From: Tridacna crocea
Taxonomy: Eukaryota > Mollusca > Bivalvia > Cardiida > Cardiidae
Length of the DNA stretch: 64,000 nt
Direction of reading: 5' to 3'
Assembly: GCA_943736015.1 (NCBI GenBank)
Contig: OX031063.1
Location: 33,820,172 to 33,884,171 of the forward strand
In this document: positions 8,841-55,271 of the stretch, piece by piece
Layout: each line of letters starts with the position of its first letter
Position numbering within the stretch: position 1 is the first letter of the stretch
Translations under genes and position numbers: made by a program
Notes under the pieces: model-generated
The model's input: the letters and a program-made list of their open reading frames with translations, nothing else
What the model was told of the DNA's origin: nothing
Databases searched by the model: none

Positions 8841-9323
8841 ATGGCCGACAGTGTTTCAGACCTCGCCGATTACACGATAAGAGTTCGAACGGGAGACCGG
8901 AAGCGAGCAGGTACAGATGCAAACATTAGAATCATACTTCACGATGGAAACGGAAATAAAACAGATAAAATGCGGCTGCATCATGTCTTTAAAAACGACT
9001 TTGAATGTGGTCAAATTGACATTTTTTCTATGCCAAAACAGAGAAACTTGGAGAGCATTGAAAAAATCGAACTTTGGCGGGACAATTTCGGCTTTGGAAG
9101 CCGATGGTACTGTGACTATATTATAGTGTTTAAGAAAGGCGGGGACCGGGAGTACAGCTTCCCAATCTACAGATGGGTTAAAGCAGACGTGCACCACATT
9201 TTTCGTCTGCATGATACCATGTTGCCCCAGCAAGATCCAATGGCCGAACAACGCTACAACGAGCTGGTAAAGAAGAAGAAGAAATATGTGGTGTGGCAAA
9301 AGATTGAAGGCGGTCCCGCTCAG
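8841..9323 (+). CDS. PLAT/LH2 domain first coding exon 1 (lipoxygenase-like)
   Basis: The exon encodes 161 residues and ends at a GT donor (GTAAAA at 9324) in phase 0. A read-through transcript would stop after five more codons. The start is the ATG at 8841; an in-frame GTG at 8808 is not a credible start. The domain spans about residues 10-160: VRTGDRK at 15-21, GTDAN at 24-28, NDFE at 52-55, LWRDNFGFGS at 78-87, WY.DYI at 89-94, FP..RW at 107-112, DTMLPQ at 125-130, and QKIEGGPAQ at 153-161. This pattern, including the EQR.xEL spacer (136-142), is that of the N-terminal PLAT domain of coral-type 8R-lipoxygenases. In that family the domain binds calcium and docks the enzyme on membrane; the GTDAN Asp is the expected calcium ligand by analogy. 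By eye it is about 60% identical to the exon at 31809. No catalytic exon is visible downstream. The family call is strong; gene structure is unknown. Confidence 0.85.
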
Positions 9324-9329
9324 GTAAAA
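9324..9329 (+). other. Splice donor of PLAT exon 1
   Basis: CAG|GTAAAA follows the Gln codon of GGPAQ exactly, in phase 0. The same position and phase are used in all four PLAT exons. Confidence 0.75.
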
Positions 9330-9469
9330 CTTTTATGCTAATTTATTCATAAACCTTTATTTCATGTTAACGATACCATTTGAGAAAGCATGCGGACTCG
9401 CGTTGTCCTCAATGAAACAAACTCGCAGCACTCGCAGCACAGGGTCTTAAAAAGACCTTGATTAAACGA

Positions 9470-9565
9470 ATCTTTGATCCAACAACACACGTGAAAATAT
9501 TGTTGCGAAAGGAGAAATTGTCCTTACGAGCAATTTCTCCTTTCGTCACAAGGTTTTAAAACGTC
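9470..9565. repeat. Family A variant hairpin (GAAATTG type)
   Basis: GCGAAAGGAGAAATTG pairs with CAATTTCTCCTTTCG. The stem is kept although its sequence differs from the main GAAAATGCTGG type. Confidence 0.5.
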
Positions 9566-10115
9566 AAGAGACATACATCAAGTGCTCTTTGCCACAATAT
9601 GTTAAACAGTTGTTTGAAGCAAAAATATTAAGTCGTTTGTTGGTGATATGGAATACGGAAGCCAAATTGAGTAGACCTGAGTCCTTACGCCATTAAGTCT
9701 TAGTTTTCGAAGTACCTCTAACTATGCGTCTAGTGCCATAAGGGAGAAATATTTGAGAGCAAGCCCTAGGGGTCACCCTTTCTTTAATGGGTCAGTTATC
9801 CGACTGACCTAAAAAATTAAAAACATTTGGATACAAAAATACCTCCAATGATATTCAAGATAGCGCTTTTACTGTCCCCTCAAGGAAAGAAGTCATTTTT
9901 CACGACTGCAGCGGACAACATTTCTTACTCATTACAGTAAAAATGGAGAAATTCATGGCAATACTATCTGAAGCTTTGGCTAACATAGAGCAGTGCTATC
10001 TTGTTTTGGTACTTTCCACGAGACTTCAGTTCTTATAATACCAGTAGTTATAATAACATTTGTATGTTTATCATCATTATTAAAACGCGTTATGCTTTAG
10101 TTATTTAGAAATGAG
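9566..10115. other. No gene or repeat recognised
   Basis: About 550 bp of the first intron or intergenic sequence with no visible feature. Confidence 0.4.
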
Positions 10116-10117
10116 CC

Positions 10118-10380
10118 ACTCTCTCGCAAAAGGGGTTTAAAGCATTTCACTGATACATTATACCGAACAAGTTATCATACAATTATGGATACGTAAAATC
10201 AATTTTGCTTATCAACCGAGTGAATCATACGGTAAACAGGTCCTTTAACATACAAAAAATTGATAAATAGCAAAATGTTTCAAACCATGTCACCCATTAC
10301 AGACTTCACCGGCTTACATGGTCGATACTTTTTACAAATGCACTAAACCCCCTTTTCACAGAGTATGGCTCAAATAGTTT
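10118..10380 (+). repeat. Family D foldback copy, eroded
   Basis: It begins GAGCCACTCTCTCGCAAAAGG and ends CACAGAGTATGGCTCAAAT, the inverted-repeat ends of D. The central palindrome is mutated. Confidence 0.55.
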
Positions 10381-10473
10381 CTGGTGGCTCAAATAACAGC
10401 CTGTGTGAGTCGGAGAAGGTGGAATAACCTCCAAATGGCTTTAACATGTGTCTTTCTTGGTGACAAATTATCA

Positions 10474-10651
10474 GGGTCCGTATTCACCAACCATTCCCAA
10501 GAACATCCTTGGTCCTATTCTGCATATTTTTCAAACTTTCAAAGTAACCATTCGGTTTAGCCAATCAGAAGTTATGTTAGTTTCAAGTTTGGACAAACTT
10601 AGAGAATAAGACTGAGAATGTTCTTAAGAAAGGCTGATGAATAGGGACCCC
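10474..10651. mobile_element. Family C foldback MITE
   Basis: GGGTCCGTATTCACCAACCA starts the left arm and TGATGAATAGGGACC closes the right arm. The middle carries GGTTTAGCCAATCAGAAGTT. Confidence 0.7.
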
Positions 10652-34335: not shown

Positions 34336-34339
34336 CCTG

Positions 34340-36770: not shown

Positions 36771-36773
36771 ATA

Positions 36774-36987: not shown

Positions 36988-37204
36988 GGAGAAGAGAGGG
37001 ATAATCAGTTAATTGTGAGCTAGAAACGAGCAAAGGTATCTTCACTGCCATTTTGAATGCATCTGCGGTTGGTATCATAACGTGAATCATGGATATCTGA
37101 GACCATTTTCTCCATTATTAAAATACACTCCAGGGTACTTCGAAAACATCTTTGTAAAATATGGACAATTAACTTAGATAATGAATCAGGAGTAAATGAG
37201 TTCA

Positions 37205-37268
37205 AAACATGATGCAAAAACGAGAAACTTCTCGTTACGAGCAATTTCTCCTTTTTTCATAATGTTTA
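37205..37268. repeat. Family A variant hairpin
   Basis: CGAGAAACTTCTCGTTACGA followed by GCAATTTCTCC: the GAAATTG-type core, left arm mutated. Confidence 0.4.
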
Positions 37269-37269
37269 G

Positions 37270-38080: not shown

Positions 38081-38093
38081 ATGGGGGACGTAG
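38073..38093 (+). other. Short upstream ORF overlapping PLAT exon 3 start
   Basis: ATGACGACATGGGGGACGTAG encodes six residues, with its ATG 8 nt before the main start and out of frame. It could lower initiation at the PLAT start if the transcript begins upstream; a transcript end is needed to know. Confidence 0.3.
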
Positions 38094-38548: not shown

Positions 38549-38554
38549 GTACAT
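38549..38554 (+). other. Splice donor of PLAT exon 3
   Basis: CAG|GTACAT in phase 0 after GGPAQ. The position matches the other three exons, although the frame remains open past it. Confidence 0.65.
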
Positions 38555-38644
38555 ATACTTCTCATAATTAATGTTGTTCGTTCGTACGTTCGGTTTATCG
38601 ATTTTTTTACACTTTGTAAAACGACCACGTGTTTTTACAACTAA

Positions 38645-38870
38645 TAAGAACTCTTTACTTAGGGACAAAATTTTAGACTTGTCGAAACTAAAAGCTCCTG
38701 CAGAAGATAGATAAAATGCATGCCAAATGGGCAAATTGTCTTTGAAAGGATAGAAAATGTTTCGGGAAAAGGCGAAAAAATTGATTACCACCATTTTCTC
38801 ATTTTCCCACAATGTTTTCAAAACCATAATTCTTAGGGTCGTAAAATTTCGGAATCGTACTAAACGGTTA
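38645..38870 (+). mobile_element. Family A MITE just downstream of PLAT exon 3
   Basis: AACTCTTTACTTAGGGACAAA to CGTACTAAACGGTTAA; hairpin mutated on the left arm. Confidence 0.55.
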
Positions 38871-38933
38871 AGAGATGGAGGCTTTTATAAAGAAAAAGGA
38901 GGAAAATGCTGGCAACCCATTGTATGTCAACAG

Positions 38934-39700
38934 TAATCAAAGCGTTGAGAACGCTGTAGTGGTATTTTTCGAGGAAACCATTGTGTGGAATTAATGATTT
39001 GAAAGAAAAAAAAAACAGAGATAGTGTTCAAAAATTGGCTTGCAAGTCAACCTACTTACAACATGAATACCTTTCACTTCTGGTTGAACGGAACATACTC
39101 ATGTCAAAGTTAGGATTATTTGTTTATTGGTGGCCCCCTTTTGATCATTAGGAGGAGTAACGTCCCTTGACAGTAGGATGCATGATGGATAGAAACTGAA
39201 ACCATTCGAATATATCGAATAAAACTAAGTTTGTACCTGAAATCTATAATTTTGAAATACCTTTGGCCGTTAAAATTTAATTTCCAATCAATTATTTCGA
39301 TCTAATAAATACTCATGCTTAATCAAATGTAGTAGCGTGCAGCCACCGGATAAACAGGCCATGGGACAAAGCGGTTTTGGAACGAAAAAGCCCTGCGCCA
39401 AGCGATCGATAGATAAGTTACATATCATTGCGCCAATAGAAGGCAATGAGCAAGTGAAGCTTTTCTCAATATTAGAACTTATATTTCCACGATCGGCAGC
39501 CTCATCCATTGTATTTTAACATGCTTTTTCCAATTACATATCTGAAAGCTACCGTAAAGCTCATTTGCCTGAGCAAAATTGGATATAAGTGGTTTATTTC
39601 CTTCGGTTTTGCATAAAATACGATACATGGTCTTCAAAATTCAATATTGAACTCATAGTGGTGTGATCATTGACAAATATCACAAAAATCGGTCCTGTCA
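38934..39700 (+). mobile_element. Unclassified ~750-bp TIR element, copy 1, with decayed coding-like interior
   Basis: It aligns along its whole length with the reverse complement of 43556-44375. Ends are inverted: GTGGTATTTTTCGAGG (38959) against TTGACAAATATCAC (about 39692). A frame on this strand encodes QAMGQSGFGTKK (from about 39355) and IIAPIEGNEQVKLFSI (from about 39427), matched in copy 2. I do not recognise the protein. Stops elsewhere show it is not intact. Confidence 0.55.
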
Positions 39701-39944
39701 AGTTGCTTTACTTATTCTTCGACCACTTGAACCTCCAGATAATTTCCCTATTCATAATAATCATGAATGAAATCCGCAATGAAATCAAATTCAAGTCTTG
39801 AATTTATCCTACGCTTACAAAGATAGAAATCAAATAGTTAATTCCAACCTTACTAGACTACTACCTTCTAGTTTGAGCACATATAAACATAGTTATTGTG
39901 CCATTTGAATGATTTTCTTTTAAATGAGCCTTTTTTAAATCTCA

Positions 39945-40200
39945 CTTGTTTGCAGACGCATCAAATCTCTGTAAAAGGCAGGGCTCCAGCCTAATGATTT
40001 TAACCTTGATACAAACAGCTTTGACTTCGTAGGATGTAAACAGCTGCCGTTTTATCCTACGTCAGTTCCAAATGCTCAGTATCCCAATATAATTTCATAC
40101 TTGTACTTCCTTTTACTTCCTTTTACCGTAATGTGCCTGAAATATTTTTGGTGCGATTAAAATATCAATCAATCAATCTGTCAATAAATTAATCATAGAT
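39945..40200 (+). mobile_element. SINE-like repeat
   Basis: Body with GGCAGGGCTCCAGCCTAATG, then GAAATATTTTTGGTGCG and a tail AATATCAATCAATCAATC. Confidence 0.45.
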
Positions 40201-40510
40201 CCTATAGGTATGTTGAACTGGTATCATTGCCATTAGTATCGGTAAACCTGACGGAAATAGAACATAGACGTGCGTAACACCTACAATGAATTATTGTGCT
40301 AAACTGTAGTAAATCCTGTAGACAAGATCGGCACGTGTTGCAGACAGAATGCATTATCGACATAACTCATATTCTACATCACTTCAACCCAGCCACTTGC
40401 AATGACAGGTTAATGCACCTACCGTCAATTTTGAAATGCATCACCTAGAGTACTCTGGAGAATCTTCTCAATGGTGAAAAACATTCCCTTTTTCCTTCAC
40501 CCTATACACG

Positions 40511-40952
40511 AAGTGAGCCCTTATCCTGCTATATAACAGAAATGAAACTTTAACCCATTACCACACAATCCCTACTTTTGACGCCCCTGAGAAAGAAGCC
40601 TTTTGAAAACACTGTAGGAAAAGGAGAAAATGCTGGTAACCAGCATTTTCTCCTTTTCCCACAGTGTTTTCTACACTTTCCAGAACAAATTTCAATTTTT
40701 CAGTCACCTTTATTTTGTCGTCTGCACATGCTCTCAATTTGAACAAGTCTAAAATTTTGTCGTGTGGTAAAGAGTTAAATTCGATATTGAAAAACCCAAA
40801 TATTGTTATTTCAGCGTTATGGTTTGGAAAATAATATCTCCGTCTCGGACAGTGTAGATCTAAGATCAGACTGCACAGAATGTGTAGTCTGATCTTGTTC
40901 TACACTGTCCACAAAGGGACAGTCATTCGCGCCTAACAGCCTTGGGGGTAAA
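40511..40952 (-). mobile_element. Family B MITE split by a complete family A MITE
   Basis: B left end CCCTTATCCTGCTATATAAC (40519) leads to GAAAC, then the A copy, then ATTCGATATTGAAAAACCC. The B consensus runs GAAA(..)TTCAATTCGATA, so removing A plus one TTAA restores B. The palindrome GACTGCACAGAATGTGTAGTC and TGTCCACAAAGG follow. Confidence 0.7.
40550..40778 (-). mobile_element. Family A MITE, complete (229 bp), nested in B
   Basis: TTAACCCATTACCACACAATC to GTGTGGTAAAGAGTTAA, with TTAA duplicated. Very similar to the reverse-oriented copy at 62783. Confidence 0.85.
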
Positions 40953-41039
40953 ATAATGGCCCTGTGAAATTACTGTACATAGGCCTGTAGTCCTGTCCGC
41001 TGAAATATTACAGATCAGATTTTAACTGTTTCTATACTA

Positions 41040-41140
41040 TAGATGATATCAGAAGTTTTTGTGGAGAGTGTAGATCAAGATCACATTGAACAGAACGTGC
41101 TGTCTGATCTTTGATCTACACTGTTCACTGCTATATTATC
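41040..41140. repeat. Family B central palindrome
   Basis: GTGTAGATCAAGATCACATTG with GTCTGATCTTTGATCTACAC. Confidence 0.5.
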
Positions 41141-41573
41141 GACTATACTGTCGCTTGATCTTGCAGAAAAAAAATTATTTTAAGGCTTTGAGAAAATGCG
41201 ATTGATTTCTTCAGAAGTGAAAGAGTTAGCTTGGTTGGTGGGGGTGCACAAGATTGTTAGAAGAAAGGAAAACACCAAATAAAACATGCATATCAAAATG
41301 TTAGATATGATAATTAGACCTCTACATAGAGATATGAATCACTGCCGAAATCCGCAAACTTAATCTACTGTGACGATGATCTCTGTCTCTGTCTCTCTGT
41401 CTCACTCTCAAAACCGAACAGAGTCGCCAAATTATTTCAAAGGCATTAATAAAGGACAACTGGCGCGACTTTCTTTTGCTGTAGACAGTTTTGCAAAAAA
41501 CGTTCTGGGGAAAAAGATCAGTTGCTTGTTGTGCTTAATAGACTTTTTCCCGTTATAAAGAGAAAAAAATGAT

Positions 41574-41878
41574 TGAGCCAGGCTCTTGCAAAGGATGTTT
41601 AATGCATCACTGTGATGCATCGATAGTGCCATGCAAGTCATCACACTAAATATTATGGATTCATGAAGTCCATTTTCTCTAAATAAAAAAAGTCGACTGG
41701 AACACGAGATACTAGTACACAGGCGCCCTACAATCACTAAGTCTTGCAGAAAAATACCTAATAGTATAAATGTTTCGACCCAGATCAGCCTTCGCGCGGA
41801 CTGTGCAAGCTGATGTGAATCGATACTTTTTGCAGATACATTAAGCCCGCCCCCTTTTGCCAGAGCATGGCTCATATA
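41574..41878 (+). repeat. Family D copy with insertion
   Basis: GAGCCAGGCTCTTGCAAAGG to TGCCAGAGCATGGCTC; the middle has an extra tract around 41690-41740. Confidence 0.6.
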
Positions 41879-41879
41879 C

Positions 41880-41972
41880 AAATTCCTTTTCTTCGATTAT
41901 ACAAATTCCTTTTCTTCAATTATTTTAAATTCCTTTTCTTCGATTATTTCAAATTCCTTTTCTTCGATTATT
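41880..41972 (+). repeat. 23-25-bp minisatellite, four units
   Basis: Units of AAATTCCTTTTCTTCGATTA followed by TTT or CAA variants, directly after the D copy. Confidence 0.8.
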
Positions 41973-42075
41973 TCTTCTTTTTACCTGTATTTAGAAAGCG
42001 TGAGTCTGAAAACTGTGTTATTGGGTGAAATGTTTCCATAACAGACATGCTTGACTTCCATATCGTATCGCATTA

Positions 42076-42320
42076 TTTGAGTCACGCTCTGTGACAAAGA
42101 GGCTTATTGCATCTCCGTGATACATGATACCAAGCAAGTCATCATTTAATTATGGATACATAAAAGCCACTTTTTTTAGATATACGACATAATCATGAGG
42201 TAGACTGGTCCTTTGGGCACGCAGAAAATTGACCATAAGCGGAAAGTTTCGGCCCGGGTCAGCCTGCGCAGGCTGACCTGGGTCGATACTTTTCGCATAG
42301 GCACTAAGCACCCCTTTTAC
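42076..42320 (+). mobile_element. Family D foldback MITE
   Basis: GAGTCACGCTCTGTGACAAAG to CCCTTTTACAGAC; centre CCGGGTCAGCCTGCGCAGGC. Confidence 0.6.
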
Positions 42321-42548
42321 AGACACGTTTGTAAATGACGAGCAAGTACGTACTACTGCTATCACAATATAAATAAATAAAGTTTGATTGGAACCCAAAC
42401 ATTAACGCCAAGAAACCTAGACTGTTACAGAATCTAATTGACTTTGTAAACATTTCACAGACATAACATCTTGCATCCAGCGTTATCTGCAACTATCATG
42501 CATTTTGCAGGTAAATCCAATCAAATATCAGTATGCACGTGATGCATT

Positions 42549-42758
42549 TAACCTGTATTACCCTTTACCGATCCCAGCTTGGAAGCATTTACAGACAAAA
42601 GTGTGGTTTCAAACTATGAAATTTGAGTATGGAGGGGTAAAAAATACTGTGGGAAACGACCGTATGTAGCATGAATACCAAAATTATTTTTCATCTTTTT
42701 TCTCACAATTTTTCAATGTGAAGTTTTGTTAAACTCGGAACTGTGAGGTAAAGAGTTA
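42549..42758 (+). repeat. Family A, hairpin lost
   Basis: TTAACCTGTATTACCC and GGAAGCATTTACAGACAAAAG to CTGTGAGGTAAAGAGTTAA, with the core replaced. Confidence 0.5.
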
Positions 42759-42784
42759 ATAAATGATTAATACATGTATATCGT

Positions 42785-42970
42785 CTGACCTCTGGGAAAA
42801 AGGTTGCTGAAAACATTGTGGAAAAAGGAGAAAATGCTGGTAACCAGCATTTTCTCCAATTTCTACAATGTTTTCTAAACACGGACAAATACGACCAGAA
42901 GCCACATTTGAAGCTGTTGTCTGCAAATGCCTTCTTCATGAACAAGTCTTGAACGTTGTGGTCTAGAAAA
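42785..42970 (-). repeat. Family A, ends lost
   Basis: GAAAACATTGTGGAAAAAGG, intact inner stem, TTGTCTGCAAATGCC. Confidence 0.55.
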
Positions 42971-43009
42971 GACAATTTAATCAATTTCCACGCAAGCTCG
43001 TATTTTCAT

Positions 43010-43200
43010 GCATGTCATGATATCGTGAACGTTACACAAAGAGGAAACATTTGACATCACATAATTTTGGATCCATGAATTCAATGTTGTCTAACAGTTG
43101 AGTGAATCCTGGGGTAGAATCATCTTTGAGCATGCGGAAAATTCACAAAAAGTAAAAAGTTTTGACCCGGTTCGATACTTTTTGCAGATGCTTTGTACGT
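43010..43200 (+). repeat. Family D, eroded
   Basis: ACATCACATAATTTTGGATCC, AAAGTTTTGACCCGGTTCGA and TACTTTTTGCAGATGC; the central palindrome is gone. Confidence 0.5.
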
Positions 43201-43250
43201 GTTTGTATGATGCTACAGGCCTTTTTCATTATAACGTCAGTTATATCACG

Positions 43251-43346
43251 ATGGCCAGAGTACCTATTCGTGCTCTCCTAAAGTTTGTATTAACAGTTGT
43301 TTTTTTGCAAAATATTATTTCCGCACAACCATCGTCGAAACAATAA
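43251..43346 (+). CDS. Orphan signal-peptide-like ORF (31 aa), probably a broken first exon
   Basis: The ATG at 43251 sits in a good context (CACGATGG). It opens a peptide with an ideal secretory signal layout: a basic n-region (MARVPIRALLK), a hydrophobic core (FVLTVVFLQNII) and an ISA|Q cleavage-like site. It then meets TAA after six more residues. A tRNA-type SINE in reverse orientation begins within about 15 bp of the stop, so the original exon may have been interrupted there. I recognise no mature product. It may equally be a chance ORF in intron sequence. Confidence 0.2.
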   Translation: MARVPIRALLKFVLTVVFLQNIISAQPSSKQ

Positions 43347-43359
43347 TCAGAGGTGGATG

Positions 43360-43482
43360 AGGAATTAAGCCTGTCGCCCTACCATCAATCCTCGGAAAGA
43401 AATGGGCGAGCTGGGGATTGGAACCAGCGAGCCGCTTGTCTCAAGTCATGTACGCTACCGACTGCTCTGCCGGGCTCAATTG
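43360..43482 (-). mobile_element. tRNA-like SINE head, reverse
   Basis: On the minus strand: GCAGAGCAGTCGGTAGCG (A-box-like) and CTCGCTGGTTCCAATCCCC (B-box-like). Confidence 0.55.
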
Positions 43483-43555
43483 TGTCGATGCATCAAACCC
43501 TCTTTTCCAAAGCTTGGTTCATATCTGTGTATATGTATTGATGGGTACGTTAAAT

Positions 43556-44375
43556 ACCAGGATCGTATTCACCAACCGTTTTGGGGGTATTTGTCAAAGA
43601 CAATACCACCACTATGAGTTCAATATTGAATTTTGAAGACCATATTTTCTTATTTTGTGCAAAATCGAAGGAAATAAATCTAATTGGACTCAATTTTTCA
43701 GGTAAATGAGTTTTTTCGGTAACACTTAGATATGCAGTTTGAAATTGCATATTAAAAAACACTGGGTGAAGCCACTGCCCGTGGAAATATTAAATTTGTT
43801 TAATAGAAAATAGCTTCAATCGCTCATAGCCTTCTATTGGCGCAATTATACAAAATTTGTCTACCGATCTTTTGGTCCTTGTTTTCTTTTTTTTGTTCCA
43901 AAACCAGTTCGTCCCATGGCTTGTTCATCCCATGATTGCGGGAGACTATACTTGATTGGGCATGAACATTTATAGTTCGAAATATTTGATTGTAATCTTG
44001 GGAATTGAATGTTAACGGCTAAAGATATTTCAGAATCATAGTTTTCAGTTACAAAATCATTTTTTGGGGGGTGGATGTGGGATATATTCACATGGTTTTC
44101 TCTCTATCCACCATGCATCCTTAACCCAAGAGACATTACTGCTGGCTCCTCCCGATGATCATAGTGAGACCACCAATACACAAATAGTTCTAACTTTTTC
44201 AGGAATAATCTCCCTTCAATAAAAAAAAAAAAAAGGAATTCACTTGCTTAGTAGATTGAGTTTCAAGCCAATATTTAAATAATATTTCTGTTTTTTTTTT
44301 TTTCAAATAATATATTCCTTACAGTGGCGTCCTTGACAAATACCACTTCAGCGTTCTCAACGCTTTGATTTGAGA
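43556..44375 (-). mobile_element. Unclassified ~750-bp TIR element, copy 2 (opposite orientation)
   Basis: On the minus strand it begins with CAAAGCGTTGAGAACGCTG, has GGTATTTGTCAAGGAC and ends GTCTTTGACAAATACC, a 16-bp inverted terminus with one mismatch. It encodes EQAMGRTGFGTKK, then in a shifted frame IIAPIEGYERLKLFSI, then WSSKFNIELIVV. The frame shift between these blocks, and stops, mark it as decayed. Confidence 0.55.
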
Positions 44376-44449
44376 AATGTTCTTTGTCTTATTTTCAAGA
44401 GGTTTTTTTTTTTTATTTGAAAGTAATACAACTTCTGGTTTGCTAAACC

Positions 44450-44530
44450 AATGCGGCCTGCGCAGGCTGACCTGGGTTGATACTTTTCGCAGATGCAATA
44501 AGCCCCCTATTTACAGAGCATGGCTCAAAT
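44450..44530 (+). repeat. Family D right-end fragment
   Basis: GCCTGCGCAGGCTGACCTGG, GATACTTTTCGCAGATGC and ACAGAGCATGGCTCAAAT. Confidence 0.6.
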
Positions 44531-44661
44531 ATTGCTGTACATGAACGAGACTCTAAGATATGATAATGATAGTTATAATTATAGTATAAACTAATTTTCG
44601 TGTTTTATACAAACTTGCATGATAACTGCGTGTTGATAGGCATGTTCCAACGAACAATTTA

Positions 44662-44975
44662 ATCAGAATATGGCGATCTTCCAGTCAGTAGTGAGCAGGA
44701 CTTGATAACAGGAGGTCGCTTGTTCGACCCCGGCTCGACCAATTTCTTCTCGAGGATTGATAATAGTCATTGCGACAGGATTCTTTCTTCTATCGCCGCT
44801 GATCATTGTTTCGCCTATGGTTAGGTGGGAAAGAAGCCACTGGCTTAGAAAGAATATTGTGAGGAGATATTGTAAAAGAAACTTGAAGAAAGCATGGATA
44901 GGCTCACTGACCGTCGCGATATAAGTGAAATAATGCTGAAAACACCGTTAAACACCATACATTTATTCAATTAAT
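44662..44975 (+). mobile_element. tRNA-derived SINE, nearly full length
   Basis: B-box-like CTTGTTCGACCCC near 44725; body with CCACTGGCTTAGAAAG; tail CGCGATATAAGTGAAATAA to TTCAATTAATC. Confidence 0.6.
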
Positions 44976-45119
44976 CAGACCAAATGATGAAAATTTCCCA
45001 GAAATCTTAGTTTCTTAGCAATAAAGGGCGTGTTAGCTTTTCTTCATAGCCAGTACAGATTCTAGTTAATCATTTTGACATTATTCTCACAATAGATCCA
45101 GGTCAGATTCTTGGGATGA

Positions 45120-45270
45120 TTATTTTTTTAGGGTGAAAAGGTTTGTGGGAAAAAGAGAAAATGCTGGTATCCGGGCCTTAGGTTCGAACCTCTATGGAGG
45201 AGCTTTAGCTTGGATTCAGCACTGAAAAAGAAACGAAAGTTCAGATCCCTTGCCTCGTTCTGATAAAGCC
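45120..45270. repeat. Family A left-core fragment joined to a tRNA-like head
   Basis: TTTGTGGGAAAAAGAGAAAA then TGCTGGTATCC runs into TTAGGTTCGAACCTC (B-box-like). Confidence 0.4.
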
Positions 45271-45737
45271 CATGATACATGCCAAAAGATCTGTCAAAAG
45301 ATCTGTCGTTACATTATTAACTTTAAAGCGGTGTAAAACACCTTAGATAGAATGTTAATTGTGAGTGAGAGCAAATCGCAACTCATGAGCATAGCAATAA
45401 GAAAGATAACTATGTATATAGTATAGGTGCATGTGGAATAAGAGTTACTTCCCCTGATCCTGATAGGTCATCCATTTTACACTTGAGGTCTCCAAAACGA
45501 GACGATTGTAAAAATTGTAAACGTAGATCAGACCCCGCAAAATGAGCCCACTTATTCAGGTTTGCATATTTTTTGCTAGCCAGAAATGATATTTATCCGC
45601 AGAAGCAGATACTGTTGTTAAAAAAAGAAAGCCTGATGGCACATGTAGACTCATCAGATTTTGATACGATTTCACAGAGTTAACCCTGTAACAAAAAAAA
45701 AATCCATGCATTTTCGGCGACTATGGAGAAGGGATAT

Positions 45738-45965
45738 TTAACCCTTTACGAAACAATCCCTGGTTTTTAAGACCTAGAGAAAGAAGCCTTCTGAAAACAT
45801 TGTGGGAAAAGGAGAAAATGCTGGTAACCAGCATTTTCTCCTTTTCCCACAATGTTCTCTACTCTTCTAAAGTCAAGTTTTGATTTTTGAGTCACGTTTA
45901 TTTTGATATCTGCAAATTCTTTCAATTTGGACATGTCTGAAATTTTGTCGTTTGGTAAAGAGTTG
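45738..45965 (-). mobile_element. Family A MITE, near complete
   Basis: TTAACCCTTTACGAAACAATC to GTTTGGTAAAGAGTTGA; perfect core. Confidence 0.8.
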
Positions 45966-46336
45966 AAAAAAAAATCATCGTAAAAGTAATGAAACTTTTG
46001 GTTTCTCAGCATTTTCTCCATGTTCACATTTCTTTTTCAATTGCCATCTCCCCTTAGGATCGACAAACTCGAGGTCGTTGAGTCATGGGCCATGACGTTT
46101 ACCTCAGAGGCTGATGAATGAAAACTGATGGATTTTGTGGTTACATTTCTGTGGGTGTGAAAAATAAATGTTCACTTTTGCATGGCAAAAATAGTATTTC
46201 TTTTTTTAATCCTCTCCATATTTGGTAAAAGGATGGCAAATCATGGGTAGGTCAGTGAGCATTCTTGCCATAACATGTCTATTTAAACCAAAACCCGTTA
46301 CAGACCTCTACTTTCCCTTTTTTTTCAATTTTTCTC

Positions 46337-46565
46337 TTAACCCTTTACCAAACAATCACTGGTTTTACGACCCTGATATGGAAGCCTCTTGAAAACATTG
46401 TGGGAAAAGAAGAAAATGCTGGTAACCAGGATTTTCTCCTTTTCCCACAATGTTTTCTATACTGCTGGAAACAAATTTCATTTTTTTAGCGACGTTTATT
46501 TTTTTCGTCTGCAATTGCTTCCAGTTTGGACTAGTCTAAGATTTTGTCGTTTGGTAAAGAATTAA
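46337..46565 (-). mobile_element. Family A MITE, complete (229 bp)
   Basis: TTAACCCTTTACCAAACAATC to GTTTGGTAAAGAATTAA; one mismatch at the apex (CCAGGATTTTC). Confidence 0.85.
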
Positions 46566-46589
46566 TCAAACTATCTTGCTTTCAAGATT

Positions 46590-46757
46590 AAAGCTTTAAA
46601 AACATTCTAGGAAAAGACGCAAATGCTGTTAACGAGCATTTTCTCCTTTCCTAATGAATAAATTTTACCTCATCAAACAAAATCCAGTTCTTGATTGATT
46701 TTACGCTATCAATGTGGGGTGGGGTCCTCTAATATTTTTGTCGACTGGCAAAGTTTA
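46590..46757 (-). repeat. Family A, diverged
   Basis: AAAAACATTCTAGGAAAAG, GCAAATGCTGTTAACGAGC and TTGTCGACTGGCAAAG. Confidence 0.45.
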
Positions 46758-46877
46758 ATACACTTTGAACACCTAGTTAGCACATAAGTTCAGACTCAGA
46801 TCAGACATCACAGAATGTGCAAACTAATCATGACATCTAACCGCCAGAGTTAATGTAACAAAATAAAACAGCCGCGT

Positions 46878-47095
46878 TTAACCCTTTACCAAACAATCCC
46901 TGGTTTTTACGACCCTGAGATAAAAGCATTTTGAAAACATTGTGGAAAAAGGAGAAAATGCTGGTAACCAGCATTTTCTTCTTTTTTCCGCAACGTTTTC
47001 TACCCTGCTGAAGACTTATTTCATTTTTTGAGTTACATTTATTTTGTGGTGTGCAAGTGCTTTCAGTTTGGACCAGTCTAAAATTTTGTCGTTAA
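46878..47095 (-). mobile_element. Family A MITE, right terminus lost
   Basis: TTAACCCTTTACCAAACAATC through AATTTTGTCGTTAAAATGC. Confidence 0.75.
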
Positions 47096-47099
47096 AATG

Positions 47100-48090
47100 C
47101 ACGGGTGCTTTCAACGCATTCAGTACCGTAGGCGAACCAAATGAGGCCCTTTGTTGGCGGCAAGATCCAGATCAGACTGAAAAGATCATTTACTGTTGTT
47201 TTGGCCCAATACCATCAGCTATCAAGTTGTTTCTTCTAGCCTCTAATGTGAACATTTCTCTGAGTTCCAGCGTCTTGAGGTTTCCCTTGAAAAAATTGAG
47301 TTTTCGTATTTGGGGCAGAAAGAGTAAACAGATCTATATATGTCTGTGAGGTGTCCAGGGCTTTTGGCAGCACGATCGAGATAGGGCTATAATTATATTC
47401 ATTCCTTCAATACGTTGGCAACCACGTAAACATTGTGGTAAATGATGGAGAAACTGCTCTGATAATCCTTCAACTTTCAGGTTGTACAAATTACCTTAGT
47501 TAGGACCAGGGTTAAATTTTTCACTACTGAAAAAGTAAATAGCACTTTCTTTCAATCGCTAAAAAAATAGTTCCTATACTAGATTAAGCTCCAGAAGGTT
47601 TATTCATATTCTATAATAAAAGGTTGGATACTGTAGATCAGAGATCAGACTGCTTATTCTGTGATCTTGAACTACATAGTCTACAAAAACGTCATGTGTC
47701 GTCAATGGTATAGAAAGAGTTAAAGGACATAGAGGGCATATATCAGATTCTGTGGGCGTTTTTAAGCCCGTAAACCATAGAATTTACCTCCGAAAAAAAC
47801 GTGAGAATTGCTGCCCACACCCCCTCTCAAAAATTTGCATACTTACGAAAGACGTGACGGATGAGCTATAAATAGAACCACACCATGTTTGCTCACCAAT
47901 AATTCCCATCGAAAAGACACAAAGATAGACTGGCTTTGCATGGATAGACAAAGTGATAACTTATTAACTGTGAATTAATGTCATTTTCAACAATTTGTCA
48001 TGGCTATCAAAACTGCTAAACGTTCTTGTGCATGCTTCATTGGAGGGATGTTACATAGCTTATCGACAGAGACAGGACACTTTATTGTCC
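47100..48090. other. No gene recognised
   Basis: Two B scraps (near 47165 and 47630-47690); otherwise featureless. Confidence 0.35.
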
Positions 48091-48166
48091 ATGGTGCGTT
48101 GTCTGCGCATGGTCCATGGTGTTATCTAATGGTGCATTGTCTGGGCATGGTCCATGGTGTTATCTG
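48091..48166 (+). repeat. 38-bp tandem duplication
   Basis: ATGGTGCGTTGTCTGCGCAT / ATGGTGCATTGTCTGGGCAT, each followed by GGTCCATGGTGTTATCT. Confidence 0.75.
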
Positions 48167-48292
48167 TAACACTGGTACCGATCTCTAGGATCTAAAGGAT
48201 CTATATCTACCTGTTCTATCCGGTCTTACTCTTTATTATACCGTCCTAAAACTCCAATTTCGGTTTGAAGTGGCTCTTTTAAGCAAAGAGAT

Positions 48293-48503
48293 GAACGCTT
48301 TACCAAACGACAAAAATTTTGGATTTGTCCAAATTGAAATGATTTGCAGACAAGAAAATTATGTTACTGAAAACATGAAACTTGTTTTTGTCCAAGGAGA
48401 AGAAAACATGGTGGGATAACAGTATTTTCTCCTTTTCCAACAGTGTTTCCAAAAATCTTCCATAAGTTAGTTAAAAGTTGAGATTGTGCGGCTGAGGGTC
48501 AAA
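48293..48503 (+). repeat. Family A, hairpin halved
   Basis: CTTTACCAAACGACAAAAATT, GTCCAAATTGAAATG, then only the right arm ATTTTCTCCTTTTCC. Confidence 0.55.
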
Positions 48504-48523
48504 CAGTGAGTTTCAATGTCAAG

Positions 48524-48755
48524 GTTAACTCCTGATCAGATAACAAAACTCTAGACTCCTCCAAGTTAAAAGCATGTGCTAAAAACAAATTACATGTTGC
48601 TCAATACTGATATAGTTTATCTTTGAAATATTACAAGACATTATGAGGAAAAGAAAGAAATGTTAGTTACCAGTATCTTCCTCTTTTCCTACAGTGTGTT
48701 TAAGCATTTTCTTTCTCAAGGTCGTCAAAATTCGAGATCGTGTACGTAAGGGTTA
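48524..48755 (+). mobile_element. Family A MITE, diverged
   Basis: TTAACTCCTGATCAGATAAC to GTGTACGTAAGGGTTAA; stem GGAAAAGAAAGAAATG / CTTCCTCTTTTCC. Confidence 0.5.
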
Positions 48756-48841
48756 ACCTGTGATAAGATGTCTGCAATATGAGAAATGATATACAATGGA
48801 GATTTAAATTGCTTTTTTCTCTGTTTATCGTTTGGCTGTTT

Positions 48842-49071
48842 TTAACCCCTTTCCAAAACAATGCAGGTTATCACAACCTTGAGAAGGAAGACTTCTGAAA
48901 ACATTGTGGGAAAAGGAGAAAATGCTGGTAACCAGCATTTTCTCCGTTTTCCTACAATGTTTTCTTCCCATCCCAAAACAAATTTCGATTTTTGAGTCAT
49001 ATTCATCTTGTCCTCAGCAAATGCTTCCAATTTGGACCACGCTTATATTAAGTTGTTTTGTAAAGGGTTAA
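48842..49071 (-). mobile_element. Family A MITE, near complete
   Basis: TTAACCCCTTTCCAAAACAA to GTTTTGTAAAGGGTTAA; TTAA both ends. Confidence 0.75.
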
Positions 49072-50014
49072 AGGCCCACAAACTGCCAGGTGTAAGAAAT
49101 TCGAGAGTCGCTGTGCTGATCAATGTATTGTAAAACTAGAACAAAAGTTGTCAACGTTTATTCTGTTTTTACAAAACACTTTCTGCTAGACCAGAAACCC
49201 ACCCTCGTTGACCCAGTCTCGGTTCATGCATGGGGATTAACGTGATGCTTAACCTGGGTTCCGAGGATGCCAGAAACGTTGACAGGCCATACTTTAGTGT
49301 GGGTTATTTTTAGGTTGACGATCCCGAAAGAAGGCTTTTCAAATCATTCTACATAGAAGAAAAACTGGACTGAACCAGCATCCTTTCCCTTTGACACAAT
49401 GTTTCCTCAATTAAAAAAAATCCCACCAACGACATGGCCGTCTTGTCTTCAAGTAACTTCAAACTTTACTTTTGTAACGTTAGACAGTGTTTCTTAAAGA
49501 ATAACAGACGTCATCTGATAGCATGCATTACACTTATTGTCTAGACTAAGCGAAGAATGGCATGTAATCTCGCTTTTTTTTTTTGTAAAATTACGGGTTT
49601 TAATGCCCTTGCAGTCGACATAGTAAATTTTAAGTGAATTGGGATTTAAATATTATTCCGTCCTTTCTTCTGTTTGATTGACATTTATCTGTGCATATAT
49701 TTTTGTCAGCAATGCAACGACACGTCTGTAGTGTTTATTGTAACATACCAATTTTTCTTTTTTATATCTGTTTATAATATTTATGAATCAACCTACATGT
49801 ATGACCGAATGTGACGATGATTATTTTATAAACATGTATATATTATTTTTTTTCGTAATGAGGTGAAATATGTGAAATTCGCAATAAATCTATGTTTATG
49901 TTTAAGTCTTCTTTTTAGTAGATCTAATTGCTGTTGTTTTTTTTCCAACATTTTTCCACAAGTTAAAATCAAACAATTGTTTCAACACATAAAATATGGG
50001 CCTATAGTAACTTC
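49072..50014. other. No gene recognised
   Basis: One eroded A copy near 49308-49440 (GAACCAGCATCCTTTCCC). The remainder is AT-rich. Confidence 0.35.
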
Positions 50015-50240
50015 TTAACCCTAAGTTCTAAAGACCCTTGCAGAAAAGGCTTTGAAAATATTAGTATTGTCGGGAAAAAAAGAGAAAATGTTCATTACCA
50101 GCATTTTCGTTTTTTCCCACATTATATTCTACTAATTTCCAGCATTTCTAAGACGAATTCCAACCTTTTGATCACATTTAATTCGTAGTAAGCAAATCTT
50201 TGCTTTCAATAAGGAACAGTCTAAATGATGGTGGTTTTGA
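50015..50240 (-). repeat. Family A, diverged
   Basis: TTAACCCTAAGTTC start, GAGAAAATGTTCATTACCAG, GCATTTTCG; right end GGAACAGTCTAAATG. Confidence 0.5.
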
Positions 50241-50369
50241 AAAACTTATTAGCCTTCGGTTGTTTTAAATATACCTTGTACGGTAATGGATTAACCCCAA
50301 GTTTACACACTTTAAAATGATAAGATATCAGGATTAGAACATTTTTATTTGTTCGGATCGTCTGACAAA

Positions 50370-50435
50370 TATCGATTCAAGGTGAGGCTATATATTCTGT
50401 GCAGTCTGATCTTGACCTACGCTGTCTGCGAAAGA
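50370..50435. repeat. Family B fragment
   Basis: TATTCTGTGCAGTCTGATCTT then GACCTACGCTGTCTGC. Confidence 0.45.
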
Positions 50436-50534
50436 AAAAAAAATGTAACGCTCTAGCATTCAAACGTCACTGAAGAATGTTTTATTTACAGTCATAGTTA
50501 ATGACCCTTTAGGCAATGTTTCTCCCTCGTTGGA

Positions 50535-50570
50535 TATAAAAGAAGGATTGGGTACAGTCTGTAGTGACTT
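50535..50570 (+). promoter_or_regulatory. Candidate TATA-type core promoter upstream of PLAT exon 4
   Basis: TATAAAAG at 50535-50542 lies in repeat-free sequence (about 50440-50880), with a plausible start site about 25-30 bp downstream. It could drive a 5' untranslated exon joined to PLAT exon 4 (4.2 kb away), but there is no direct link. A single TATA string in AT-rich DNA is weak evidence. Confidence 0.18.
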
Positions 50571-50890
50571 CGTGTTTTACTTCGGTATTTGGCTGAACGA
50601 AGTGTTTTAGTGTACCAAAATACATTCTTTTGTAAATATTAAAAGTGATAGAGTATTGATTTAGATCTAGGTCAGTGATCGTTTACTTGAAGCAAAGACG
50701 TGAGCTGTGTGTGTGTTTTTTTAAATGTACAGATTTTAGTATTTTTTTGTTTTAATTTCTTTTATTTTTTCGAACGTGGTGGATAGTAAGAGAAAAATTG
50801 AGTGGGTTTCTTGTTGGATGTGTTTTCTTTTTAAGCTTTGGAACTTTGTTTTACTTTCCTGTCTGTAGTATTTTTAGGGGCGTTAGACCT

Positions 50891-51107
50891 TTAACTCATT
50901 ACCAAACGACAATATTTTAGACTTATCCAAATCGAAAGCGTTTGCAGATGACGGAAAAAAGTGACTGAAAATTTGAAAATTGTTTTGTGAAGGGTAGAAA
51001 ACATTGTTGGAAAAGGAGGAAATGCTGATTACCATCATTTTCTCCTTTTCCCACAATGTTTTCAAAAGGCTTCTTTCAAACGTAGGGATTGTGTGGTAAT
51101 GGGTTAA
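50891..51107 (+). mobile_element. Family A MITE, near complete
   Basis: TTAACTCATTACCAAACGAC to GTGTGGTAATGGGTTAA. Stem differs at matched positions near the apex (ATGCTGATTACCATCAT). Confidence 0.8.
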
Positions 51108-51833
51108 ATTTAATGCTTTATATATGCTGGAGTAAAAGTTATGATCTTTTTTTATTCTCACGTCACTAACGTTACTCCGTCGTTAATAGTTTATTATTCC
51201 AATGTGGTACGGCCATTGATAGGTTTTTATTTTAAAAAAAATGAATGCAAAAGACTGAAAAAAAAAAACACGGTTGTATAAATGTTATGGACTATTTCTA
51301 GTTGTTGTTTTTTTTCTTAGTAAATCAATTGAAATGAAATGTTAAAAAAGCATCGTTTTTGTGCATTTCATTTAGACCTGTCTGGCAATTCATGAAATCA
51401 TTGAAACTGGTTAACATACTTAAATATTTGTTGGATACATACATCAGGAAATGTTGAAAATTCTCGCCACAAACGTTTTCCCCCATTTCTCACTGATTAG
51501 TGTTTTTTCTTGTTTTCCAGCAACGGGTTACTTGGGTGTTGCAAGTCTTATTCACTGTTTTCACTACGTATCTGTGAATTAAATATGCCCTCTTGATGAG
51601 TACCTCTGAAGGGTGAAGGATTCATTGAACATGATAAATTCGTGATATATTGTTAGATTAAACTCTCTGAAGTTGGAGACAGGGAAGATAGATAACAAAA
51701 TAAACAGGGGTTAAATAAACCATCGTGATTGTAAAATTATGCAACTCATTATTAGATATAAATTCACGACGTATTATGAAGACTTCTGGGTTAAGATCTG
51801 TAAAATGAGAAAAAACCAGAAATTATTGTACAG
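51108..51833. other. No gene recognised
   Basis: AT-rich sequence before the 212-bp duplication. Confidence 0.35.
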
Positions 51834-52254
51834 GTGTATTCATGAGGGTAAATTAATATAGGTGAAATACTGTTGAAATAGATGGAAACCCGTCAGCATG
51901 AGACACCATGTTTAAAACTAGGTGGGAAGGTGGAGCGTGTGACAGATACAGAAATTGAAAGAGGCATTTTGTTCAAAATGAAAATAATTGTGTATTGCTG
52001 TTTCAATATTTTTCTCTCAGACACCTGATGCAATAGGCTTATATGGTGTATTCATGATGGTAAATTAATATAGGTGAAATACTGTTGAAATAGATGGAAA
52101 CCTGTCAGCATGAGACACCATGTTTAAAACTAGGTGGGAAGGTGGAGCGTGCGACAGATACAGAAATTGAAAGAGGCATTTTGTTCAACATGAAAATAAT
52201 TATGTATTGCTGTTTCAATATTTTTCTCTCAGACACCTGATGCAATAGGCTTAT
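51834..52254 (+). repeat. 212-bp direct tandem duplication
   Basis: Two units (from 51834 and 52046), each from GTGTATTCATGA to GCAATAGGCTTAT, with only a handful of base differences. Confidence 0.9.
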
Positions 52255-52539
52255 CAAGTAGTGAAGTTCCATGCTCAGAAACTACGAGGGTTGGCTATTT
52301 TTTAGAAATTAACTGTTGGCAATATTTAGATTTTTTTTTCTGTCGCAAGCAAGGGGTTTTCAGGTTAAGGGACATGACAAACTTGTCACTGGCCTCTGTT
52401 TACTTTTGGATGTTCAACATTTATGAAAAGAAGATTAGATTTGATAATGTCAATTTAAATCCTTAGCGTTGACAAAAATTTAAACTTGCAAGTATAATTT
52501 GAAAGCAAATACATACAGATTAAGTTAATGTAGCGTTCA

Positions 52540-52800
52540 TAATCTAGGATTTGTGTGCGAAGGGGTAGAAAATACTGAAAAGGAGAAAATTTCCTGCTTT
52601 TCCCACAATGCATCCAAACCCTATTATTCAGGTTCATATAAAGACAGTCTTGTTTGCTGAAGGGTTAAACCCATTGCACATGAAATAAAACTTAACTCCT
52701 TGGTGGAAGACAGCTTTTAAAAAATATTGTGAAAAAAAGGAGCAATTTTAGTTTAGTTCTTCAGTCCTACAATTTTCCACAGAATCTTCCTTTATTGAAA
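52540..52800. repeat. Two eroded family A copies
   Basis: GGTAGAAAATACTGAAAAGG with GCTTTTCCCACAATG, ending GCTGAAGGGTTAA (about 52667). A reverse piece with TTAACTCCTTGGTGG follows. Confidence 0.45.
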
Positions 52801-53310
52801 TCGAAAATTGTCTTTAGTTAAAAGCATTTCTTGTTAGTCTCACTTGACATATTTGCTGATATGTCTGAAAATATTCTGATATAGATATTTTTTGGAGAAA
52901 TTTATTTAAATACTTACAATTACTTTTAAAAACTAAATGGCAGCAGGTACTAGATACTCTGCTTTCACTGCAATGTTTTCTGCCCTACCACAGAAAAATC
53001 CCTTTATGTTGGTCAATTTTGAAGATCCAACAGTGTTGTAATGTATGGACAAGTGATATTTTGTGGTTTGGTATTTCAGAAAGTGACTTTGAAAATTGAC
53101 GATAATTATGGTTATTTGATGTGCTAAATCCTTTCCTTTGACACAATTTTTGGTTACTTCCCACAAATAACTGCTACATTGCTCCATAAATACATTTTTT
53201 TTCTTGGGGTACATGTAAGACAACATTTTTGGGAGCAGAAAACATTTCATTCATTGACATTAACATAGTGACAATTTAGGATCAAAGAAAAATGCAAAAA
53301 ATAAGTAGCT
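52801..53310. other. No gene recognised
   Basis: The 105-codon minus-strand frame here (52933-53250) lacks any motif and starts and ends in AT-rich sequence. Confidence 0.3.
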
Positions 53311-53312
53311 AT

Positions 53313-53541
53313 TTAATCCATTATCACACTATCCCTACTTTTGACGACCTTGAGAAAGAAGCCTTTAAAAAATATTATGGGAAAAGGAGAAAATGCTGGT
53401 AACAAGCATTTTCTCCTTTTCCCACAATGTTTTCTACCCTTCACAAAACAAATTTCAAATTTTCAGTCACTTTTAATTTGTCATCTGCAACTGCTTTCGA
53501 TTTGGGCAAGCCTAAAATTTTCTCGTTTCGTAATGAATTAA
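53313..53541 (-). mobile_element. Family A MITE, complete (229 bp)
   Basis: TTAATCCATTATCACACTATC to GTTTCGTAATGAATTAA; TTAA both ends. Confidence 0.85.
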
Positions 53542-53798
53542 ATACATTTTATGAAGCAGTAGTTCTCGTCTGTACTTGGCTGGAAACAATTGCTCTGTGC
53601 TGTCAAATATACCATGTTCCAGCATGAAAAATGCTTTTAGAGAGAGAAAATATCAATGGAGTAGAAAACCACAAACATTTAAAAATGTTGACATAAGAGT
53701 GGTTTATCTTAACCTTTTACCACACAATCCAGAGTTTTAAGCATAACATTTTAAATAAAAATATTGACAGAGAAGTGGTACATGTACGTGCGTATACC

Positions 53799-54014
53799 TT
53801 AACTTTTTACCACAACCATGAGGTAAAGGCCTTTTGAAAATATGGCGGAAAAAGAAGAAAGTGCTTATAACCAGCATTTTCTTCTCTTTCCACAATCTTG
53901 TTACCTTTTCCAAAGTTGAATTTCTTATTTTGATTGTGATTCACAATTATTTGTTGTCTGCTAAAGTTTCCACGTTGAGCAAGTCAAATATTTTCTGGTC
54001 CAGTAATGGGTTAA
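53799..54014 (-). mobile_element. Family A MITE, diverged
   Basis: TTAACTTTTTACCACAACC to GTCCAGTAATGGGTTAA. A short A left end also lies at about 53710-53745. Confidence 0.6.
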
Positions 54015-54319
54015 ACAATATGTTTGACTCACAGTCACTTCAAATGGAAAAAGTCACAAATGCTTGCATTTCTTCGTGGTGAAGGGACACAGGCATTTGT
54101 TTTGTGACAAACTTTTGTATTCATGTATATAACACTGTATAGATCGGAGGTTTGTCAGGAAACAGGTACCTGTGGGAAGGAAATAACTGCCACAAACATA
54201 ACTTTGTAACTTTGTTGAGGCGGTTATTTAAGGTATTTTAGAGTTTTGAGATGAATGGAAGGAAGGGTTTTTAATTTCAGTAAAGTATATGCGACGAAAC
54301 CATTACACAGGTGAGGCTA

Positions 54320-54549
54320 TTAACTCTTTGCCAGACGACAGTGTTGTTCCTTTCCAAATGAAATGCATTTGTGGATTACAAAGAAAATGGAATTCAAATT
54401 GAGAGATGATTTTTCAAAGAATAGAAAACAACATAGGGAAGGGAGAAAATGTTGGCGCACGGCATTTCAAGTTCTCCTTTTCCCTAAATGCTTTCGTAAG
54501 CCCCCAACTTCAGTGCTTATTTATACTGGGCATTGTGTGGTAAAGGGTT
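54320..54549 (+). mobile_element. Family A MITE, diverged, upstream of PLAT exon 4
   Basis: TTAACTCTTTGCCAGACGAC to GTGTGGTAAAGGGTTA; hairpin broken by ATTTCAAGTTC. Confidence 0.6.
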
Positions 54550-54776
54550 AGATCGTAGCATTTAAAAGGCAACTATGGAAAGTTTAGGTTGAATGGTAAC
54601 TGCAAAGAACCTGCAGTCCGATGTGGAATTTCCAGTTGATAATGTTTTCTCTTAGTGATTTGAAAATGTTTGTTTCTTCTGTTTAGCTATCTAAGGATAA
54701 CCTGAGACAGTACTCGTTGACAAAATCTTGTATAAGGTAATTCAGACATTCCACTACACAAATATTTTTTTAAAAA

Positions 54777-55271
54777 ATGGGTGCATGTCTTGGCGTACAA
54801 AATTCACAATTTTTGATTTACGTGCGAACTGGAGACAAAAAGAATGCAGGAACAGATGCAAATGTGAAAATAAAGTTACACGATTCAAATGGAAATCATA
54901 CAGATGACCTAGTGTTAGATAATTTCTTTAGAAATGACTTTGAAAGTGGAAATTTAGATGTATTTCCAATAAAAGACTTAAAACAGAAACAATTTGCCGG
55001 TAAGATCAGTCGGATAGAATTTTGGCGGGACAATGCTGGCCTAGGAGCAGATTGGTTTGTTGACCAAATTACGGTGGAAAATAGGAAAACCAATGATTTA
55101 TACATATTTCCAGTATTTCGTTGGATAAAACCGGACTACCATTACTTGATAGAGCATCTGGACACCTCTCTACCACAGTTTGATCCCCACGGTGATCAGC
55201 GGAAGCAAGAGTTAGAAGATAAAAGAGTCACATATGAAATTGTACAAAAAGTTCCTGGTGCTCCTGCACAG
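54777..55271 (+). CDS. PLAT/LH2 domain first coding exon 4, possible acylated N-terminus
   Basis: The exon encodes 165 residues from ATG 54777 to a near-consensus phase-0 donor (GTATGT at 55272). Motifs: YVRTGDKK at 15-22, GTDAN at 25-29, NDFE at 53-56, FWRDNAGLGADWFVDQ at 82-97, FPVFRW at 111-116, LDTSLPQ at 128-134, DQRKQELEDKR at 140-150 and VPGAPAQ at 159-165. It begins MGACLG, absent from the other three: Gly2 and Cys4 fit an N-myristoylation plus palmitoylation signal, which would tether the enzyme to membrane independently of calcium. That is inference from the motif only. An insertion (KQKQFAG, about 69-75) lengthens one loop. It has the best splice donor of the set. A MITE ends at 54549, leaving about 230 bp of non-repeat 5' sequence. 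The rest of the gene is not seen in the remaining 8.7 kb. Confidence 0.85.

Follow-up and report, generated by a model that had tools for sequence, protein, structure and literature searches.

Four tandem PLAT exons with lipoxygenase-type linkers in Tridacna crocea, possible variable first exons of one lipoxygenase gene

Four exons, each encoding a complete PLAT domain together with a lipoxygenase-type inter-domain linker, lie in tandem on the forward (+) strand of a 64,000-base stretch of the Tridacna crocea genome (GCA_943736015.1, contig OX031063.1, positions 33,820,172 to 33,884,171), which contains zero N and is called the window below. No lipoxygenase (LOX) catalytic exon was detected between or after these exons. 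We give a slightly better than even chance to the reading that the exons, designated P1 to P4, are variable first exons of one animal LOX gene, the single catalytic body of which would lie to the right of position 64000. A fuller version of this reading, which we regard as evenly balanced between true and false, holds that one catalytic body is served by at least four ancient and diverged PLAT first exons, with the calcium and membrane module being swapped at a constant active site and P4 possibly being lipid-modified.

Four PLAT exons and their lipoxygenase-type linker

The four exons, with their donor sites (a slash marks the exon end), are as follows.

8841-9323, + strand: P1, PLAT first coding exon of 161 amino acids (aa), starting MADSVSDLADY and ending GGPAQ; donor CAG/GTAAAA, phase 0
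31809-32276, + strand: P2, PLAT first coding exon of 156 aa, starting MDPVDY and ending GGPAQ; donor CAG/GTATCG, phase 0
38081-38548, + strand: P3, PLAT first coding exon of 156 aa, starting MGDVDY and ending GGPAQ; donor CAG/GTACAT, phase 0
54777-55271, + strand: P4, PLAT first coding exon of 165 aa, starting MGACLGVQ (Gly2, Cys4) and ending GAPAQ; donor CAG/GTATGT, phase 0

All four exons matched the PLAT/LH2 family in Pfam (PF01477; E-values of 2.2e-20 for P1, 3.8e-21 for P2, 2.8e-18 for P3 and 4.4e-20 for P4), with Pfam bounds differing from the exon coordinates by at most 15 bases. The PLAT domain of coral 8R-LOX matched P1 at an E-value of 1.2e-20 (36% identity), P2 at 5.7e-25 (38%), P3 at 2e-17 (30%) and P4 at 3.4e-21 (33%), while the best PDB match of P2 was the coral structure 2fnq (E 4.1e-20). 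A chance origin of the four PLAT matches is excluded by these E-values. In each case the open reading frame (ORF) is uninterrupted from the ATG to (G/A)PAQ and is followed by a phase-0 CAG/GT donor, and the upstream in-frame stop begins 6 to 36 bases 5' of the ATG (at 8805 for P1). The donors score between the 93rd and 99.9th percentile among + strand GT sites on a splice matrix. The initial annotation, which had described four ATG-started PLAT exons, all on the + strand and all ending (G/A)PAQ at a phase-0 GT, is therefore confirmed by the Pfam, ORF and donor analyses. Searching the window by tblastn with P1 to P4 and the coral PLAT as queries revealed no fifth PLAT exon at E<=0.1 (five further rows had E-values of 0.24 to 0.76). 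A codon-usage scan, a method insensitive to short exons, likewise singled out P1 to P4 as the only segments exceeding a Markov null (leave-one-out scores of 16.5-20.6, compared with 11.5 as the highest score among 20 null sequences); the runner-up segment of the window scored 10.5 and lies inside a repeat. Viral contigs gave no match to P2, and 12 PLAT loci with 30-40% identity were seen in prokaryote genomes.

The exons carry more than a PLAT core. A profile built from P1 to P4 matched 25 distinct PDB sequences at E<=0.1, 16 of them LOX and nine non-LOX, although these include many mutants and near copies and correspond to approximately six different LOX enzymes and to non-LOX proteins of three kinds. 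The match extends to positions 150-157 of 161 in all 16 LOX sequences, whereas it ends at 79-121 in all nine non-LOX sequences (polycystin-1, Rab6-interacting protein 1 and alpha-toxin/phospholipase C). The ends of the four exons are homologous to one another, and they fall directly 5' of the segment that in coral LOX and 5-LOX runs into DLPRD(V/I)QF of the catalytic domain. Because a LOX-type inter-domain linker is present, P1 to P4 are, judging from their sequences, lipoxygenase front ends that retain the linker toward a catalytic body in four of four cases. Structural prediction was applied to P2 (mean predicted local distance difference test score, pLDDT, of 69.8, with a poorly modelled linker), and Foldseek matches of this model, ordered by E-value, were all LOX chains from rank 1 to rank 41.

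The four exons are old and diverged. Protein identity is 63% between P1 and P2 and 45-47% in the five other pairs, and the proportion of nonsynonymous differences (pN, 0.26-0.39) is below that of synonymous differences (pS, 0.73-0.88) in six of six pairs. Corrected synonymous divergence (dS) is infinite in five of the six pairs and 2.64 in the remaining one, and there are no stops or frameshifts in any of the four exons. Because synonymous sites are saturated while the protein is conserved, P1 to P4 have experienced long past purifying selection, a pattern that counts against long-dead relics, though it is compatible with recent loss of use.

Splicing one PLAT exon to the next would require a phase-0 acceptor among the AG sites that separate the PLAT core from the in-frame stop preceding it, and there are nine such sites (six in P1, two in P2, one in P3 and none in P4). 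None of the nine is in phase 0, so a PLAT donor cannot be spliced to the PLAT exon that follows it, and a serial multi-PLAT protein was rejected on this basis (three of these sites lie in P2 to P4, with P4 having no AG). Since P4 has no AG there at all, it must provide its own start codon. First-exon status is firm for P4 and strongly suggested for P1 to P3, for which the in-exon ATG is the simplest start.

The modules also differ from one another at specific positions. The loops GTDAN and ND(F/L)E are present in all four exons, and we take the GTD and ND.E residues to be calcium ligands, following the roles assigned in the LOX literature. The residue aligned with the coral Trp (in LDKWFHNDFE) is Val in P1 and P2, Ile in P3 and Phe in P4, and the second loop reads NFGFGS in P1 and P2, DAGILD in P3 and NAGLGA in P4; the Trp loop and the second loop are presumably membrane loops. 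This pattern would fit a predicted calcium binding that is retained while membrane choice varies. In addition, the N-terminus of P4 (54777-54800, + strand) reads MGACLG, with a Gly2 and Cys4 that the other three exons lack, and we take this motif to be a candidate dual lipid-modification signal (N-myristoylation plus palmitoylation).

The search for catalytic exons and other contents of the window

The sequence downstream of each PLAT exon was divided as follows.

9324-31808, + strand: interval after P1, 22.5 kb; no LOX catalytic exon detectable (Pfam, tblastn, ORF comparison, codon scan)
32277-38080, + strand: interval after P2, 5.8 kb; no LOX catalytic exon detectable (Pfam, tblastn, ORF comparison, codon scan)
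38549-54776, + strand: interval after P3, 16.2 kb; no LOX catalytic exon detectable (Pfam, tblastn, ORF comparison, codon scan)
55272-64000, + strand: stretch from P4 to the window edge, 8.7 kb; no catalytic exon detectable (Pfam, tblastn, codon scan)

The LOX catalytic family PF00305 was absent from a Pfam scan of the three + strand frames of the whole window, run without a positive control, which found PLAT at four places and a sub-threshold RVT_1. When the catalytic domain of coral 8R-LOX and that of 5-LOX were used as tblastn queries against both strands of the window, the best E-values were 1.1 and 1.2, which is noise. As a control for tblastn, pieces of each enzyme were inserted into the + strand of a duplicate of the window, and the respective other enzyme served as the query; at E<0.1, the two directions recovered 13/16 and 11/16 of the 35-aa implants, 11/11 and 11/11 of the 50-aa implants, and 8/8 and 8/8 of the 70-aa implants. 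Catalytic exons concealed in the intervals can thus be rejected for pieces of at least approximately 50 aa, on the strength of tblastn with + strand implants, while 35-aa pieces are partly missed. Seven LOX motif patterns, of which one was ineffective in the form used, had no match on either strand of the window. The minus strand was covered by the LOX tblastn, these motif patterns and the codon scan. In sum, the approximately 55 kb 3' of P1 yielded no LOX catalytic exon to Pfam on the + strand or to tblastn on both, and the earlier remark that no catalytic exon was in sight holds for the entire window (Pfam on the + strand; tblastn on both strands with its control).

A comparison of ORFs of >=20 aa among the intervals, with 19,367 repeat bases masked and without a positive control, revealed no convincing coding stretch common to them. 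The listing, which left out pairs of PLAT exons, held 12 cross-interval ORF pairs at E<=0.01; one of these is the antisense of the P3 and P4 exon ends, two are a single place read on both strands, and the remainder are isolated short matches.

Beyond the PLAT exons, the window contains a short repeat family at approximately 50 places (e.g. 1412, 21982, 31582, 40631 and 60796) in both orientations, with the core TGCTGGTTACCAGCA. Around this core is a near-perfect palindrome that spans approximately 80 bp, with as many as 36 of 40 positions paired, and lies inside repeats of approximately 240 bp. Cores with up to three mismatches number 50, or approximately one per 1.3 kb, and the weakest of them pair at only 12-15 of 40 positions. 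One palindromic copy is located approximately 230 bp 5' of the start codon of P2. The family looks like a miniature inverted-repeat transposable element (MITE) or a hairpin short interspersed nuclear element (SINE), without a tRNA or Rfam match; no tRNA and no Rfam family were found in the window. The RVT_1 match (63554-63706, + strand; E 0.013, under the curated cut-off) is probably a transposon fragment, and self-comparison flagged 38935-39693 (759 bp) and 43575-44370 (796 bp), each with a maximum coverage of 1, which are perhaps copies of one larger element.

Competing explanations for the array

If P1 to P4 are variable first exons of one gene, then each would be transcribed from its own promoter and translated from its own start codon, and each would supply a complete PLAT domain (C2-like, binding calcium and membrane) plus the LOX inter-domain linker. 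The phase-0 donor of each exon would be joined to the first exon of a common catalytic body beyond position 64000, with the intervening PLAT exons being skipped, and the choice of promoter would set which membrane and calcium module, with its own membrane loops and N-terminus, is placed on one iron active site. We infer the separate promoters, this splicing and its functional effect from an array in which the exons themselves, their linkers, their history of selection and their non-seriality were observed.

Several results weigh against this arrangement. The catalytic exon was not found in the window, and the shared body is wholly inferred. The initial annotation had reasoned that any of the PLAT exons could be joined to one shared body; the agreement of phase and junction residues on which it relied does hold in four of four exons, but it is also expected from tandem duplication without any sharing and does not discriminate, because tandem duplicates inherit both by descent. 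The spacing between PLAT exons (5.8 to 22.5 kb) and the distance to any catalytic exon (>8.7 kb) would require very long introns, although UGT1 has very long introns of this sort. Second exons that are very short, very divergent or not of LOX type would evade the searches (3/16 and 5/16 of the 35-aa implants were missed at E<0.1), and P1 to P3 may be preceded by a further coding exon that joins them in phase 1 or phase 2, these being the phases of all nine AG sites. The coral LOX match stops approximately 10 residues short of the exon end, before GGPAQ, and the linker is not significantly more invariant than the core (16/38 versus 34/114 positions; Fisher p 0.17). Furthermore, the LOX matches in Foldseek have a root-mean-square deviation (rmsd) near 8 and a template-modelling (TM) score near 0.6, whereas pancreatic-lipase PLAT domains (rank 42 on) have an rmsd of 2.6-3.4 and a similar TM score; the modelled P2 fold thus supports PLAT and only weakly LOX, with LOX and lipase PLAT being separated only by E-value.

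There are several other potential explanations for the array. P1 to P3, and perhaps P4, may be PLAT-only genes that have lost the catalytic part and end in short private 3' exons or by intron read-through, yielding soluble PLAT proteins as competitors for sites on membranes. No catalytic exon follows any of the four within the window, as this would predict, a stop occurs within a few codons past the donor in P1, P2 and P4 and after approximately 31 codons in P3, and AATAAA is present in every interval, although in numbers near chance. However, the LOX-type linker has been kept in all four exons and is, by the comparison given above, about as invariant as the core, the CAG/GT donor has been retained in all four, and the intervals share no convincing coding stretch (masked comparison of ORFs >=20 aa, without a positive control), so we consider PLAT-only genes unlikely, if by no means negligible. 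The suggestion in the initial annotation that the exons might be PLAT-only relics similarly loses ground, since all four ORFs are intact, synonymous sites are saturated while the protein is conserved, and every copy has the LOX-type linker. A somewhat less probable explanation is that a LOX gene to the right uses P4 alone (or none of the four), with P1 to P3 being orphaned duplicates of its 5' end, disused but undecayed copies of exon 1. Incomplete tandem duplication easily copies first exons alone, yet pS has reached 0.73-0.88 without a stop or frameshift in any of the four exons and at a protein identity of 45-63%; since long-disused copies would have decayed, this explanation would require a loss of use that was recent and repeated.

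The number of catalytic bodies is not fixed by the window, and animal genomes often carry LOX paralogues in tandem, so several bodies could lie to the right, with each PLAT exon belonging to a body of its own or serving several as interleaved genes. This would need ordered promoters far 5' of interleaved bodies and is less simple than a single shared body, which makes it quite improbable. An assembly artefact, in which repeat-rich sequence caused exon 1 of different LOX genes to be fused and their bodies to be lost, seems if anything a shade more improbable: a single short repeat family of a kind able to confuse assembly occurs densely across the window (approximately 50 palindromic cores), but there is zero N, and three or four losses would be needed, each sparing only exon 1 and all on the same strand. 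A set of four long-intron, self-contained LOX genes, also raised in the initial annotation, would be the usual result of tandem gene duplication, but as an account of the whole array it is scarcely credible. No catalytic exon lies between the PLAT exons in a tblastn search that recovered 11/11 of the 50-aa implants in each direction, and self-contained genes are refuted for P1 to P3, short of an assembly error or of catalytic bodies that have diverged far beyond the distance between coral and human LOX; P4 alone may belong to such a gene. A promoter-choice system, as originally proposed, stands as the best of the remaining models rather than a demonstrated one, with its shared body placed outside the window.

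Comparison with known systems

Variable-first-exon clusters with common constant exons are established for UGT1, GCNT2 and PCDH, and the same source calls the arrangements of UGT1, GCNT2 and UGT2A vertebrate-specific (PMC1885805). The array described here resembles UGT1 (and also GCNT2, UGT2A and protocadherin alpha/gamma) in being composed of tandem, same-strand, paralogous first coding exons that each encode a whole N-terminal domain, in having donors that all share one phase, and in the absence, within search sensitivity, of constant exons between the variable ones. It differs in that the variable module is a LOX PLAT domain rather than the UGT acceptor domain or a cadherin ectodomain, and in that the array is known from its first exons alone, the constant exons not being in the window. 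In insects, chemoreceptor genes such as Gr28 and Gr39a combine a choice of 5' exons with a common set of 3' exons, so that alternative first coding exons with a shared 3' end have a precedent among invertebrates; these genes encode receptors and not enzymes, however, and most of the protein comes from their 5' exons.

Compared to the coral 8R- and 11R-LOX (2fnq, 3dy5, 3vf1) and animal 5-LOX, the four exons share a PLAT domain with GTD and the inter-domain linker, as well as, with the coral enzymes, the ND.E loops and FP..RW, and the coral and 5-LOX PLAT domains are their best sequence matches in the PDB. In contrast to these enzymes, only the front end is present, four times and without the iron-binding body, and identity to the coral PLAT is 30-38%. 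According to a LOX review, removal or mutation of this domain often changes stability, rates or substrate specificity, and 11R-LOX is fully dependent on PLAT calcium binding and membrane association (PMC7436259). Since PLAT affects LOX behaviour, exchanging the PLAT domain would plausibly alter where and when one active site works. No report of a lipoxygenase with alternative or multiple PLAT first exons was found in the open-licence literature among the titles listed. If P1 to P4 do share one catalytic body, the clam would regulate an enzyme through promoter-level exchange of a membrane-targeting module, and it would offer four naturally occurring PLAT domains attached to a single catalytic domain, with which to test the control that PLAT exerts over calcium response, membrane choice and allostery in lipoxygenases, a question raised in that review (PMC7436259). 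Such a gene would constitute a variable-first-exon array in an oxylipin enzyme, and would place a LOX in a gene arrangement that is described as vertebrate-specific for UGT1, GCNT2 and UGT2A (PMC1885805).

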